64,000 nt of DNA from Streptomyces sp. P3 (GTDB taxonomy: Bacteria; Actinomycetota; Actinomycetes; Streptomycetales; Streptomycetaceae). Numbering within the stretch: position 1 is the stretch's first letter; every line of letters starts with the position of its first letter. A program made the position numbers and the translations under genes. The stretch covers positions 744,001-808,000 of the forward strand of contig NZ_CP028369.1 of the NCBI RefSeq assembly GCF_003032475.1, written 5' to 3'. Below the pieces are notes generated by a model. That model had not been told where the DNA came from and made no database searches. It saw only the letters and a program-made list of their open reading frames with translations. Below, piece by piece: positions 57,866 through 62,583 of this stretch.

Positions 57866-58051
57866 CCGCCCCATCCTGCCCCACCGCACCGACAATGCGA
57901 CGGGCTCGCGACGCAGTGTGACCCTCGCTCCCGGGCGAGGCTTCGGGCAGACTGTGCGCCCCCGCATTTGCACCCTGATGCCCCCGTGTGTCGGCGGGAC
58001 ATGCCACCATCGTGCGGGCGGTGACCGGTGATACGAGACCAAGAAGAGACG

Positions 58052-60739
58052 ATGAAGCAGCAGGGCGTGCACGCAGAGGACGCGCAGGGCGCCTCTGACG
58101 CCGCGGCGCGCCCGGACATCCCCGACGAGCAACGGGAGGAGGTGCACATAGACGAGGTCGAGGGTGACGAACCCCTGCTCCCCGCGCGCGTGCACCGGCC
58201 CTCCGACCTGATGCGGCTGATGATCGGCGTGTTCGCCGTCATCGTGCTCCTGGGCATCGCCGCCTTCGCCCACGGAACCACTTCCGGCCTCGAACAGGAC
58301 ATCAACAAGGGCACCGGACAGGCGCCCGACCTGCTCATCAAGATCGCCGGCCTGGCGTCCAGCATCGCGATCCTGCTGGTCCCGGTCGCGTTCGCGATCG
58401 AGCGTCTGATCAAGCGGGACGGGCTGCGCATCGCCGACGGCGTGCTCGCCGCGGTCCTCGCGCACGGTGTGACACTCGCCACCGACCTGTGGGTCGCGAA
58501 GGCTGCTCCGGGCTCCATCCAGGAGGCGCTGACCCAGCCCTCCCCGGGTGACATCCACGCCCTGACCGACCCGGTGCACGGTTACCTCGCACCCGTCATC
58601 GCATACATGACCGCCGTGGGCATGTCGCGTCGCCCGCGCTGGCGCTCGGTGCTGTGGATCGTGCTGCTCCTGGACGCCTTCTCGATGCTCGTCACCGGCT
58701 ACACGACGCCGTTCTCGATCATCCTCACCGTGCTGATCGGCTGGACGGTCGCGTACGGCACCCTGTACGCGGTCGGCTCGCCGAACGTGCGGCCCACCGG
58801 GCGGACGCTCATGGCGGGTCTGCGGCACGTCGGGTTCCGCCCGGTGAGCGCCTCCCGCGAGGAGACGCCGGACGCGGCGGAGGGCGACCGGGGCAGACGC
58901 TACTTCGTCACCCTGGAGGACGGACCGCCGCTGGACGTGACCGTCGTCGACCGGGAGCAACAGGCGCAGGGCTTCTTCTACCGCGCGTGGCGCAACCTGG
59001 CCCTGCGCGGCTTCGCCACCCGCAGCAGTCTGCAGTCGCTGCGCCAGGCACTGGAGCAGGAGGCGCTGCTCGCCTACGCGGCCATCGCGGCCGGCGCCAA
59101 CGCGCCGAAGCTGATCGCGACCTCCGAGCTGGGGCCCGACGCGGTGATCCTCGTCTACGAGCACACCGGCGGCCGCACCCTCGACTCGCTGGCGGACGAG
59201 GAGATCACCGACGACCTGCTGCGCCACACCTGGCACCAGGTGCGGGCCCTGCAGTCACGCCGCATCGCGCACCGCCGGCTCGCCGGTGACGCGATCCTGG
59301 TGGATCGTTCCGGCACGGTGATCCTCACCGATCTGCGCGGCGGCGAGATCGCGGCCGGCGACCTGCTGCTGCGCATGGACGTCGCCCAGTTGGTGACGAC
59401 CCTGGGCCTGCGGGTGGGGGCCGAGCGCGCGGTGGCCTCCGCGGTGGGCGTGCTCGGGCCGGACGCGGTCGCGGACTGTCTGCCGATGCTCCAGCCCATC
59501 GCACTGTCCCGCTCCACGCGCGCGACGCTGCGCCGCCTCGCGCGCGAGCGCGCGCAACGCCAGCGGGAAGCGGTTCTCGAGGCCTCCCAGCAGGCCAAGC
59601 AGGCCCGCGCGGAGGCGGCCGAGGCCGACATCGAGGCCGCCGTCGCGGAGAAGCCCGGCAAGAAGGCCGTGCGCGCGGAGGCCCGGGCCGAGAAACGGGC
59701 CATCGACGAGGCGCTGGAGGGGGCGCGCGAGGAGGACCTGCTGACGCAGATCCGCCATGAGGTGCTGCTGATCCGTCCCCAGGCACCGGTCGAGCCCGCC
59801 CGGCTGGAACGGGTGCGGCCGCGCACCCTGATGAGCTTCATCGCCGGTGCCATCGGCGCGTACTTCCTGCTGACCCAGCTCACCCACATCGAGTTCGGCC
59901 CGCTGATCGCCAACGCCGAGTGGGGCTGGGTCGCCGCGGCCGTGCTGTTCTCGGCCATGAGCTACGTCGCAGCCGCGATGAGCCTGCTGGGGTTCGTGCC
60001 GGAGCGGGTGCCCTTCCCGCGGACCGTGGCCGCGCAGGTCGCCGGGTCCTTCGTGAAGATCGTCGCGCCGGCCGCGGTCGGCGGCGTCGCCCTCAACACG
60101 CGCTTCCTGCAGCGTGCCGGGGTGCGGCCGGGACTCGCGGTGGCCAGCGTCGGTGCCTCACAGCTCTTCGGGCTCGGCTGCCACATCCTGATGCTGCTGT
60201 CCTTCGGCTATCTGACCGGCACCGAGAAGACGCCGTCGCTGTCGCCGTCCCGCACGGTCATCGCGGGTCTGCTCACGGTGGCGGTGCTCGTGCTCGTGGT
60301 GACGTCGGTGCCCTTCCTGCGCAAGTTCGTCTCCACGCGCGTGCGGTCGCTGTTCGCGGGCGTCGTGCCGCGCATGCTGGACGTGCTGCAGCGGCCGCAG
60401 AAGCTGGTCACCGGCATCGGCGGGATGCTGCTGCTCACCGCCTGCTTCGTGATGTGCCTGGACGCCTCGATCCGCGCGTTCGGCGACGAGTCGACCTCGC
60501 TCAGCATCGCGAGCGTCGCCGTCGTCTTCCTCGCCGGCAACGCGCTGGGCTCCGCGGCGCCGACGCCGGGCGGAGTCGGCGCGGTCGAGGCGACCCTGAC
60601 GGTCGGCCTGATCGCGGTGGGGCTGCCCAAGGAGGTAGCCGCGCCCGCGGTGCTGCTCTTCCGACTGCTGACCCTGTGGCTGCCCGTACTGCCGGGCTGG
60701 CTGGCCTTCAACCATCTGACCCGCAAGGGCGCCCTCTAG
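58052..60739 (+). CDS. Large membrane protein: kinase-like domain plus LPG-synthase-type TM domain
   Basis: 895 residues. Acidic N-terminus, then about five or six helices (about 55-235), a soluble domain (about 260-460) resembling a protein-kinase/ABC1-type fold with AYAAIAAGANAPKLIATSEL, HRRLAGDAILVDRSGTVILTDL (a catalytic-loop-like stretch), a charged coiled-coil (about 500-560), and a C-terminal lysylphosphatidylglycerol synthase TM/AglD-like domain (about 590-890; AAPTPGGVGAVE). Probably modifies or flips a cell-envelope lipid. ATG 58052 has GAAGAGA upstream. Its TAG stop is part of a CTAG site where an insertion sequence has landed. Confidence 0.85.
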   Translation: MKQQGVHAEDAQGASDAAARPDIPDEQREEVHIDEVEGDEPLLPARVHRPSDLMRLMIGVFAVIVLLGIAAFAHGTTSGLEQDINKGTGQAPDLLIKIAGLASSIAILLVPVAFAIERLIKRDGLRIADGVLAAVLAHGVTLATDLWVAKAAPGSIQEALTQPSPGDIHALTDPVHGYLAPVIAYMTAVGMSRRPRWRSVLWIVLLLDAFSMLVTGYTTPFSIILTVLIGWTVAYGTLYAVGSPNVRPTGRTLMAGLRHVGFRPVSASREETPDAAEGDRGRRYFVTLEDGPPLDVTVVDREQQAQGFFYRAWRNLALRGFATRSSLQSLRQALEQEALLAYAAIAAGANAPKLIATSELGPDAVILVYEHTGGRTLDSLADEEITDDLLRHTWHQVRALQSRRIAHRRLAGDAILVDRSGTVILTDLRGGEIAAGDLLLRMDVAQLVTTLGLRVGAERAVASAVGVLGPDAVADCLPMLQPIALSRSTRATLRRLARERAQRQREAVLEASQQAKQARAEAAEADIEAAVAEKPGKKAVRAEARAEKRAIDEALEGAREEDLLTQIRHEVLLIRPQAPVEPARLERVRPRTLMSFIAGAIGAYFLLTQLTHIEFGPLIANAEWGWVAAAVLFSAMSYVAAAMSLLGFVPERVPFPRTVAAQVAGSFVKIVAPAAVGGVALNTRFLQRAGVRPGLAVASVGASQLFGLGCHILMLLSFGYLTGTEKTPSLSPSRTVIAGLLTVAVLVLVVTSVPFLRKFVSTRVRSLFAGVVPRMLDVLQRPQKLVTGIGGMLLLTACFVMCLDASIRAFGDESTSLSIASVAVVFLAGNALGSAAPTPGGVGAVEATLTVGLIAVGLPKEVAAPAVLLFRLLTLWLPVLPGWLAFNHLTRKGAL
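60736..60739. other. CTAG target-site copy, left
   Basis: CTAG immediately outside the left inverted repeat; contains the stop codon of the preceding membrane protein gene. Identical CTAG at 62505-62508. Confidence 0.75.
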
Positions 60740-60757
60740 ACCCGGATTTCGCACATG
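60740..60757 (+). repeat. Left terminal inverted repeat of the IS
   Basis: 18 bp, exact inverse of 62487-62504. Confidence 0.95.
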
Positions 60758-60778
60758 CCTCGTTCGGTTGGAACGAGG
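60758..60778. terminator. Hairpin inside the left end of the IS
   Basis: Perfect 8-bp stem CCTCGTTC/GAACGAGG with a 5-nt loop, directly adjacent to the left inverted repeat. It could stop or fold read-through transcripts from the upstream gene and so limit transposase expression. Confidence 0.6.
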
Positions 60779-60825
60779 CCCGTGCGGTGTCTGGTTGTCG
60801 GTCTGGTCGTTGATGTGATGTGTCG

Positions 60826-62508
60826 ATGATTTCGCGTGCCGAGCGGTCGCGGGTACGTCGCCCACGGATGAACGTGGAGATCGCACCTGTGGTGGAGAGA
60901 CGTCTGGGCGCTCTGCCTGCCTCTGCCGAGTTTCTGCGCCGGCTGGACGTGGCCCGGATCGTCGACGAGCTGTGCCCGGTGCGCGATGTCGCGCATCTGA
61001 CCCACGGGCAGGTCGTCGAGGTCCTGGTCGCCAACCGGCTGTCTGCGCCCGCGCCACTGGTGCGGGTCGGCGACTGGGCACGTGAGTGGGCGGTGGAGGA
61101 GGTCTTCGGAATCGAGGCGGACCTGCTCAACGACGACCGTATCGGCCGCGCCCTGGACGCCATCGCGCCCGAGCTGGAACACATCGTCGGCACGGTCGGT
61201 GCGAGCGCGATCGCCGAGTTCGGCATTGATGTCTCGCGCCTGCACTGGGACATGACCAGCATCTCCCTGCACGGCGCCTACGAGACCCCGCAGGAGGAGT
61301 TCCCGCAGGTCAAGTACGGTCATCCCAAAGACCGCCGGGCTGATCTCAAGCAGATCCAGGCCGGGATCGCGATCTCTGCGGACGGCGGCATTCCCGTCTT
61401 CCACCGTGCCTACGACGGTGGGGCCGGCGAGGTCTCCCAGGTCGTCGGGGCGATGACGGCCCTGCGCGAGGTGGCCGCACCCCGCGAGTTCTTGATGATC
61501 GGCGACTCGAAGCTGGTCTCCTACTCCAACCTCCTGGCCATGCAGGAAGCCCGAGTGAGGTTCATCGCCCCGGCGCCTGCGGCCAGGATTCCCGATGGCC
61601 TGTTCGCCGGTCTCGACACGGCCCGGGCCCGCCCGGTCGACTACACCGCCGGACGAGACGCGGCAAAGCCACCCGCTCAGCGTGGCCAGTACCGCGTGCT
61701 GGAGGACACCCAGACCCTGGCTGGTCCGCGCAAGCGCGACCCGGCCATCACCGTGCGCCGGATTCTGGTCCACTCCAGCGCCAATGCCCAGGCCCAGCAG
61801 GCCGCCCGCATCCGACGCCTGGACAAGGCCCGTGAGGAACTGGACAAACTCCAGCGTGCCTGCGGCGGCCGGCACTACGCCACCGCCCAGAAGGTCACCG
61901 CCCGGCTCGGCGTGATCACCAGCAAACGCCGCATCGGCTCCTGCCTGGTCACCTCCATCACCGTCGATGAGAGCGGACGACCTGCCCTGACCTGGTACTA
62001 CGACCAAGAAGTCCTGGCCGTCGAAGCCGCCGCGGACGGCTGGTACGCGCTGCTGAGCACCCTCGGTCCCGCAGAGGCCGACGCCGCCGAGGTCCTCATC
62101 CGCTACAAAGGCCAGCCGGTGATCGAGCGCCGCTACAGCGACTTCAAGGGCCCGCTCGCCGTGGCCCCGGTCTTCCTGCACCACAACCGGCGCATCGCCG
62201 CCCTGATCACCGTGATCTGCCTGGCCCTGCTGGTGTTCTGCCTCATCGAACGCCAGGTCCGCCAAGCCCTGGGCGGCGACCAGACCATGCGCGGGCTCTA
62301 CCCCGACAACCGGGCCCTGCGCCCGACCGGACGCCTGATCCTCTACCACCTCGCCGACCTCCGGATCCGGGCCGGAACCGCCACCGACCCGCCAACCATC
62401 CTGATCACACGCGCCGTTCAAGCCCACCTGCTCGAACTACTCGGCATCGACGAAACCCGCCCACGCTGGCTGGACACCTCAAACCCCATGTGCGAAATCC
62501 GGGTCTAG
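60826..62508 (+). CDS. IS1634-like DDE transposase
   Basis: 560 residues from ATG 60826 (GTG 60820 and ATG 60868 are alternatives; none has a clear Shine-Dalgarno). RNase H-like catalytic core: first Asp in LHWDMTS, second Asp in FLMIGDSKLVSYSN, Glu in PVIERRYSDFKGPLAVAPVF, typical of the IS1634/IS4 group. The hydrophobic HHNRRIAALITVICLALLVF segment is also a family mark. The frame runs through the right inverted repeat and ends with TAG that belongs to the flanking CTAG, not to the element. Confidence 0.92.
   Translation: MISRAERSRVRRPRMNVEIAPVVERRLGALPASAEFLRRLDVARIVDELCPVRDVAHLTHGQVVEVLVANRLSAPAPLVRVGDWAREWAVEEVFGIEADLLNDDRIGRALDAIAPELEHIVGTVGASAIAEFGIDVSRLHWDMTSISLHGAYETPQEEFPQVKYGHPKDRRADLKQIQAGIAISADGGIPVFHRAYDGGAGEVSQVVGAMTALREVAAPREFLMIGDSKLVSYSNLLAMQEARVRFIAPAPAARIPDGLFAGLDTARARPVDYTAGRDAAKPPAQRGQYRVLEDTQTLAGPRKRDPAITVRRILVHSSANAQAQQAARIRRLDKAREELDKLQRACGGRHYATAQKVTARLGVITSKRRIGSCLVTSITVDESGRPALTWYYDQEVLAVEAAADGWYALLSTLGPAEADAAEVLIRYKGQPVIERRYSDFKGPLAVAPVFLHHNRRIAALITVICLALLVFCLIERQVRQALGGDQTMRGLYPDNRALRPTGRLILYHLADLRIRAGTATDPPTILITRAVQAHLLELLGIDETRPRWLDTSNPMCEIRV
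62487..62504 (-). repeat. Right terminal inverted repeat of the IS
   Basis: 18 bp, exact inverse of 60740-60757; also codes the last six residues of the transposase (MCEIRV). Confidence 0.95.
62505..62508. other. CTAG target-site copy, right
   Basis: CTAG directly outside the right inverted repeat; supplies the transposase stop codon. Confidence 0.75.
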
Positions 62509-62583
62509 ACGGGCTCCGACAGCCGTACCCCCGGACGGCCCGCGTCCCGCGCGCGTGCCCGTACGCGACCTCAGGATGGGATC

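Follow-up and report, generated by a model that had tools for sequence, protein, structure and literature searches.

An IS1634-family insertion sequence in Streptomyces sp. P3 whose transposase takes its stop codon from an NCTAGN target

The window analyzed here is a stretch of 64,000 nucleotides from the genome of Streptomyces sp. P3 (NZ_CP028369.1; 9.85 Mb in a single contig), and all coordinates are positions in this window unless another locus is named. The window includes a membrane protein gene with an insertion sequence (IS) at its stop codon. The features of the locus are the following:

58028..60739, + strand: host gene, a membrane protein with an LPG_synthase_TM / flippase-like domain (open reading frame, ORF; Pfam PF03706, E 1.9e-31)
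60735..60740, no strand: left target duplication TCTAGA with the core CTAG at 60736-60739 (the 6-bp length is deduced from the varying outer bases of relatives)
60739..60799, + strand: strong hairpin predicted for the RNA of the left end, beginning at the host stop codon (-37.9 kcal/mol, z -5.7)
60741..60757, + strand: left inverted repeat CCCGGATTTCGCACATG, 17 bp (repeat search, sequence)
60741..62503, + strand: IS1634-family insertion sequence, 1763 bp (sequence, inverted repeats, family model)
60820..62508, + strand: transposase, 562 aa, with a GTG start and a TAG stop (62506-62508) in the right target copy (ORF, family models)
62479..62481, + strand: TCA codon in the position of the TAA or TGA stop carried by closer relatives (tail RWLDT-S-NPMCEIRV versus RWLET-stop-NPMCEV..)
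62487..62503, - strand: right inverted repeat, a perfect reverse complement of the left one that doubles as code for the transposase C-terminus
62504..62509, no strand: right target duplication TCTAGA with the core CTAG at 62505-62508, the source of the transposase stop (sequence, relatives)

The transposase matches the NCBIfam model NF033559 (transpos_IS1634) over residues 24-544 with 237.6 bits (cut-off 100, E 3.1e-70); this is the only NCBIfam match, and DUF4277 is the only Pfam match at E <= 0.001. Judging from the near full-length family match, the protein is likely to carry the catalytic DDE residues. Both ends of the element read CCCGGATT, in agreement with the IS1634-family end rule C-----YT (PMC2266710 Table 1), and the 1763 bp between the 6-bp repeats fall inside the family size range of 1500-2000 bp. 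Membership in the IS481 family was rejected, as no IS481 model matched (Pfam, NCBIfam, E <= 0.001), and membership in IS701, which has a conserved 4-bp target duplication, was discarded given a duplication of 6 bp and IS1634 as the only NCBIfam model matched. The closest relative found is in Streptomyces sp. ISL-98 (locus L006), with 90% protein identity. A hairpin is also predicted at the corresponding end of the ISL-98 copy (z -7.5); the predicted left-end structure might insulate the transposase gene against transcription or translation running in from the host gene, or could serve as a terminator for the host gene.

A previous sequence-only reading of this locus proposed that the IS had entered a CTAG overlapping the TAG stop of the membrane protein gene and that the left copy keeps this stop. 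Both points were borne out: the host ORF ends in ...RKGAL-TAG, with the TAG (60737-60739) within the left CTAG, and the same end is found in the relative G013, where the IS is absent. The upstream gene thus stays whole after insertion, because the left duplicate retains its TAG. A second full copy in the P3 genome (G000:C1:4633389-4635161, CTAG to CTAG) is 100% identical over 1773 bp. TCTAGA likewise stands at both of its ends, and an acyl-CoA dehydrogenase gene has its TAG stop in the left CTAG. The comparison with an empty site in a related strain, which had been suggested together with that reading, was carried out with 61 genomes for site 1 and 31 genomes for site 2. The most similar flanks were those of G013, which lacks the element at both loci: site 1 has the sequence CCCTCTAGT (flank 97% identical) and site 2 the sequence CCTCTAGAAC with the hexamer TCTAGA intact (flank 98% identical). 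Elsewhere in the P3 genome, a 42-bp segment (L003, G000:C1:7085226-7085267) is 95% identical to positions 166-207 of the element query and is perhaps a remnant or a distant relative.

Because TCTAGA stands on both sides, the window alone leaves the duplication at 4 to 6 bp. Relatives are more informative. The ISL-98 copy has TCTAGG at both flanks. Of 21 paired elements, among them the two P3 copies, 20 have matching NCTAGN hexamers at their two ends, with hexamers such as GCTAGA, TCTAGC, ACTAGC, GCTAGG, TCTAGT and CCTAGC; the sole exception is L023, in which the sides are unequal. Outside these pairs, L022 lies between two copies of TCTAGT, and L015 lies between CCTAGA and ACTAGG, with unequal outer bases. 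Since the outer bases of relatives vary and yet match between the sides, the duplicated target is best read as the 6-bp unit NCTAGN, not CTAG alone. A duplication of 4 bp, with the outer T and A belonging to the element, as known from elements that duplicate a CTAG-like 4-bp target, would be compatible with the two P3 copies, which cannot tell 4 from 6, and with L015 and L023, whose sides have just CTAG, or CTAG and one more base, in common. However, the ISL-98 flanks and the matching varied hexamers are at odds with it, and 6 bp both suits the direct repeats of 5-6 bp tabulated for the IS1634 family (PMC2266710 Table 1, in the part of the paper available) and leaves a perfect 17-bp inverted repeat; we therefore regard the 4-bp alternative as very unlikely. 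The IS1634 family is described as using AT-rich target tracts, and NCTAGN is AT-rich only in part.

Is CTAG the actual target? Protein matches at E <= 1e-100 were obtained in 13 of the 392 genomes of the genus, P3 included, and within this set identity to the window transposase is at most 70% outside the P3 genome. We searched the same 392 genomes with the inverted-repeat end of a neighbouring subgroup, using a pattern that does not contain CTAG. This search returned 61 matches in 30 genomes, and its reversed-pattern control returned 0. When 56 of the 61 ends were read (the 5 in G195 were left out), CTAG was found in exact register before 43; among the remaining 13, the tetranucleotide at this place differs from CTAG by a single base in 6 and by at least two in 7. 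CTAG is scarce in the P3 genome, with 167 occurrences in 800 kb where base composition predicts 2110 and a second-order Markov estimate gives 475, i.e., a frequency of about 2e-4 per position, so that 43 of 56 is far above chance. The same scarcity, along with the like arrangement of the second copy, indicates that the arrangement in the window is more than chance. A second pattern search, with the window-type end in 297 genomes of the family, yielded 46 places outside the P3 genome, all of which were examined. Many of these are chance matches; at 11, similarity to the transposase was detected nearby in the stretch examined, and CTAG lies 4 to 8 bases past the pattern in every one of them. In L140, a remnant that is recognisable by its tail and gave no similarity match, no CTAG follows the pattern. 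These surveys support CTAG as the true target core, a possibility raised in the sequence-only reading, although the unit that is duplicated is larger than four bases.

Two further loci should be mentioned. L126 has a lone window-type inverted-repeat end beside CTAG (around 2202-2223), perhaps a remnant; neither transposase similarity nor a second end was found in the 4.5 kb around it, and its interpretation as a short non-autonomous element was dropped, as both matches are one end read on two strands. In L012 (G141:C86, 553-2329), a related element apparently lies within a CRISPR-like array, with a repeat containing GCGGGGGTGTTCCG on both sides.

The other part of the sequence-only reading concerned the transposase, the frame of which was said to leave the right inverted repeat and to end only in the TAG of the right CTAG. 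This is indeed the case: the sole terminator of the frame is this TAG, and the final sense codon, GTC, consists of one base of the element and two bases of the target. Read across the right end, the codons are ...CGG-G|NC-TAG (the element stops at the bar), and the TAG is consequently in frame for any NCTAGN site. Depending on the first target base, the last sense codon would specify Val, Ala, Asp or Gly, and it is always followed by TAG. Strict choice of CTAG would suffice for this outcome, and special adaptation would be unnecessary.

To place this arrangement among relatives, we compared 34 transposase tails from 34 loci (L018 gave no row and L132 gave two). Not included in the 34 are L019 and L084, which have their own TGA; L080, which is broken near the end; L025 and L027, two copies whose tail is identical to that of L013; and L009 and L010, which have no C-terminus. 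An own stop, TAA or TGA, is present in 28 of the 34 tails; in 13 of these the target TAG shares the transposase frame, in 12 it does not, and in 3 the right CTAG was not found. In 9 tails of the window's closer type, TAA or TGA lies 26 bases before CTAG, at the place of the TCA codon in the window, and the target TAG is an in-frame second stop. The six tails without an own stop are those of the window element, ISL-98, L128, L082 and two in L132. The target TAG closes the frame in four of these; the tail of L082 and one L132 tail run past it. The L128 and L132 tails, with CAA in place of the stop, are on fragments or deletion derivatives; for this reason they were not counted as functional and were rejected as independent borrowed-stop lineages. 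Among the tails read, a full-length transposase with a borrowed stop is thus confined to the window type and ISL-98. In L082, from a plasmid of Streptomyces sp. NBC_00984, the own stop is lost without rescue by the target TAG, and the annotated protein continues into flanking DNA.

In a tree of 24 transposases, the window element and ISL-98 group together (support 98/98). The closest tail outside this pair, L157, retains TGA; it aligns over 95 residues and is absent from the tree. Hence, the borrowed stop looks derived and not the rule among relatives, and the simplest history of these tails is a single loss of the own stop in the window lineage, after NCTAGN targeting that would be older. It had been argued in the sequence-only reading that target choice itself, if CTAG is preferred, guarantees the transposase stop. 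This holds for the present element, at any NCTAGN site, but is not supported as a design of the element type; internal stops, which were expected to speak against such a coupling, occur in the 28 relatives and not in the element itself.

We consider it very probable that the locus carries an IS1634-family element that chooses NCTAGN and duplicates these 6 bp, and that its ancestral stop was lost and replaced by the TAG of the target. Under this explanation, the transposase would pick NCTAGN sites and duplicate the hexamer. CTAG is scarce in this GC-rich genome, with part of the remaining sites within TAG stop codons. In ancestors of the element, a TAA or TGA nine codons upstream would have ended the frame; mutation of this codon to TCA would have abolished that stop, and the TAG of the right duplicate would have become the replacement, thanks to strict target choice. 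The boundaries, the target core, the two identical copies, the empty sites and the tails of the relatives are observed; we infer that targeting came first and stop loss later, and also that a transposase ending at a borrowed stop is active.

Two views of the relation between target choice and stop codon were weighed. According to the first, the stop loss was a neutral accident, and target choice is not adapted to provide a stop. This view is nested within our preferred explanation (rescue, not adaptation), and its odds are not exclusive of those of the latter. It is consistent with the stop having been lost in another frame in L082 and one L132 tail, both of which run past CTAG, with a target TAG that lies outside the transposase frame in 12 of 25 tails having both an own stop and a right CTAG, and with stop loss in the fragments L128 and L132. 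Nothing strong opposes it: the presence of two identical copies points to continued mobility of the borrowed-stop form, which is not deciding. We lean moderately toward this view. According to the second, selection keeps target choice strict since the transposase needs the TAG. The in-frame stop that this element obtains from any NCTAGN site would fit, but relatives with an own stop have equal NCTAGN specificity, which argues that target specificity is independent of the stop and makes selection of this kind highly improbable.

Borrowing of a stop codon from CTAG has already been published for other IS elements; what is new here is a member of the IS1634 family and a readable history of stop loss. 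In TnRErm46/ISRe46 of Rhodococcus equi (IS481 family), the target is CTAG, the direct repeat is NCTAGN, and the right TAG is the transposase stop (PMC6794481, in the part available). Both halves of the present finding, the host side and the transposase stop, are in print for that element, which differs from the window element in its IS481 transposase, cargo genes and inverted repeats; the available part of its description does not mention an ancestral internal stop. ISLxc2 and ISLxx4 of Leifsonia xyli, also of the IS481 family, duplicate NCTAGN and have the transposase stop in the host insertion site (PMC2516522, available part). They share the transposase half with the window element, whereas the transposase family differs, and host gene ends are not discussed in that part. 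For IS870 (Fournier, Paulus and Otten 1993; PMC6471742 reference 93, where the title is given), the title states that the target 5'-CTAG-3' is required for the stop codon of the large ORF1, and by this title it resembles the window element in that a CTAG target makes the ORF stop. The trait that defines this type (IS870, ISLxc2, ISRe46), the lack of an own stop together with a transposase stop provided by the duplicated CTAG-containing target, was found in the window type and ISL-98.

The IS1634 family, as defined in the available part of PMC2266710 (1500-2000 bp, ends C-----YT, repeats of 5-6 bp, AT-rich target tracts), shares size, ends, repeat length and transposase with the window element and differs in the AT-rich targets described. 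The same source reports two family members with long, variable repeats; therefore, not every member duplicates 6 bp. Its main text has 0 occurrences of CTAG or stop codon. In the literature on IS1634 elements, in the parts available, we did not find a target-supplied stop stated, which is not proof of absence.

We also compared the positions of insertions relative to gene ends, which were called by a codon-usage score trained on the P3 genome instead of a gene finder, and are crude. Within 800 kb of P3 sequence, 27 of 331 tests, each of one site on one strand, gave a predicted gene-ending TAG, compared to 26 of 82 insertion ends (2 of 84 were dropped, as the flanks were too short). When each site was counted once, 11 of the 20 classed insertions coincided with a predicted gene end, versus 26 of 164 CTAGs in the P3 genome (Fisher p 0.0002) and 21 of the 88 remaining CTAGs of the insertion loci (Fisher p 0.013); one insertion and three sites in each control were unclassed. 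No insertion (0/20) fell in the inside-gene class, versus 15/164 in the P3 genome (p 0.38, not significant) and 5/88 in the same loci. The inside-gene call is conservative, because a large mixed 'other' class takes 123 of the 164 background CTAGs, along with 9 of the 20 insertions. The enrichment at gene ends is held as a lead, because the ends are non-independent, the gene calls crude and the genomes different; preferential retention of insertions that do no harm would account for it just as well as targeting. It is conceivable, albeit doubtful, that NCTAGN elements of the IS1634 family in GC-rich actinomycetes are drawn to, or survive mainly at, gene-ending TAGs beyond what CTAG scarcity predicts, and that this rare tetranucleotide, as a safe landing place for both element and host, has repeatedly let different IS families drop their own stop.

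With the element described here, the IS1634 family joins the IS groups in which the stop codon is supplied by a CTAG target, and its relatives point to a sequence of events in which site specificity is the earlier and loss of the own stop the later. The location of 11 of 20 insertions on a predicted gene-ending TAG, according to crude gene calls, may offer a simple reason for harmless insertions in GC-rich genomes. For annotation, it follows that transposases of this kind should not be cut at the inverted repeat.
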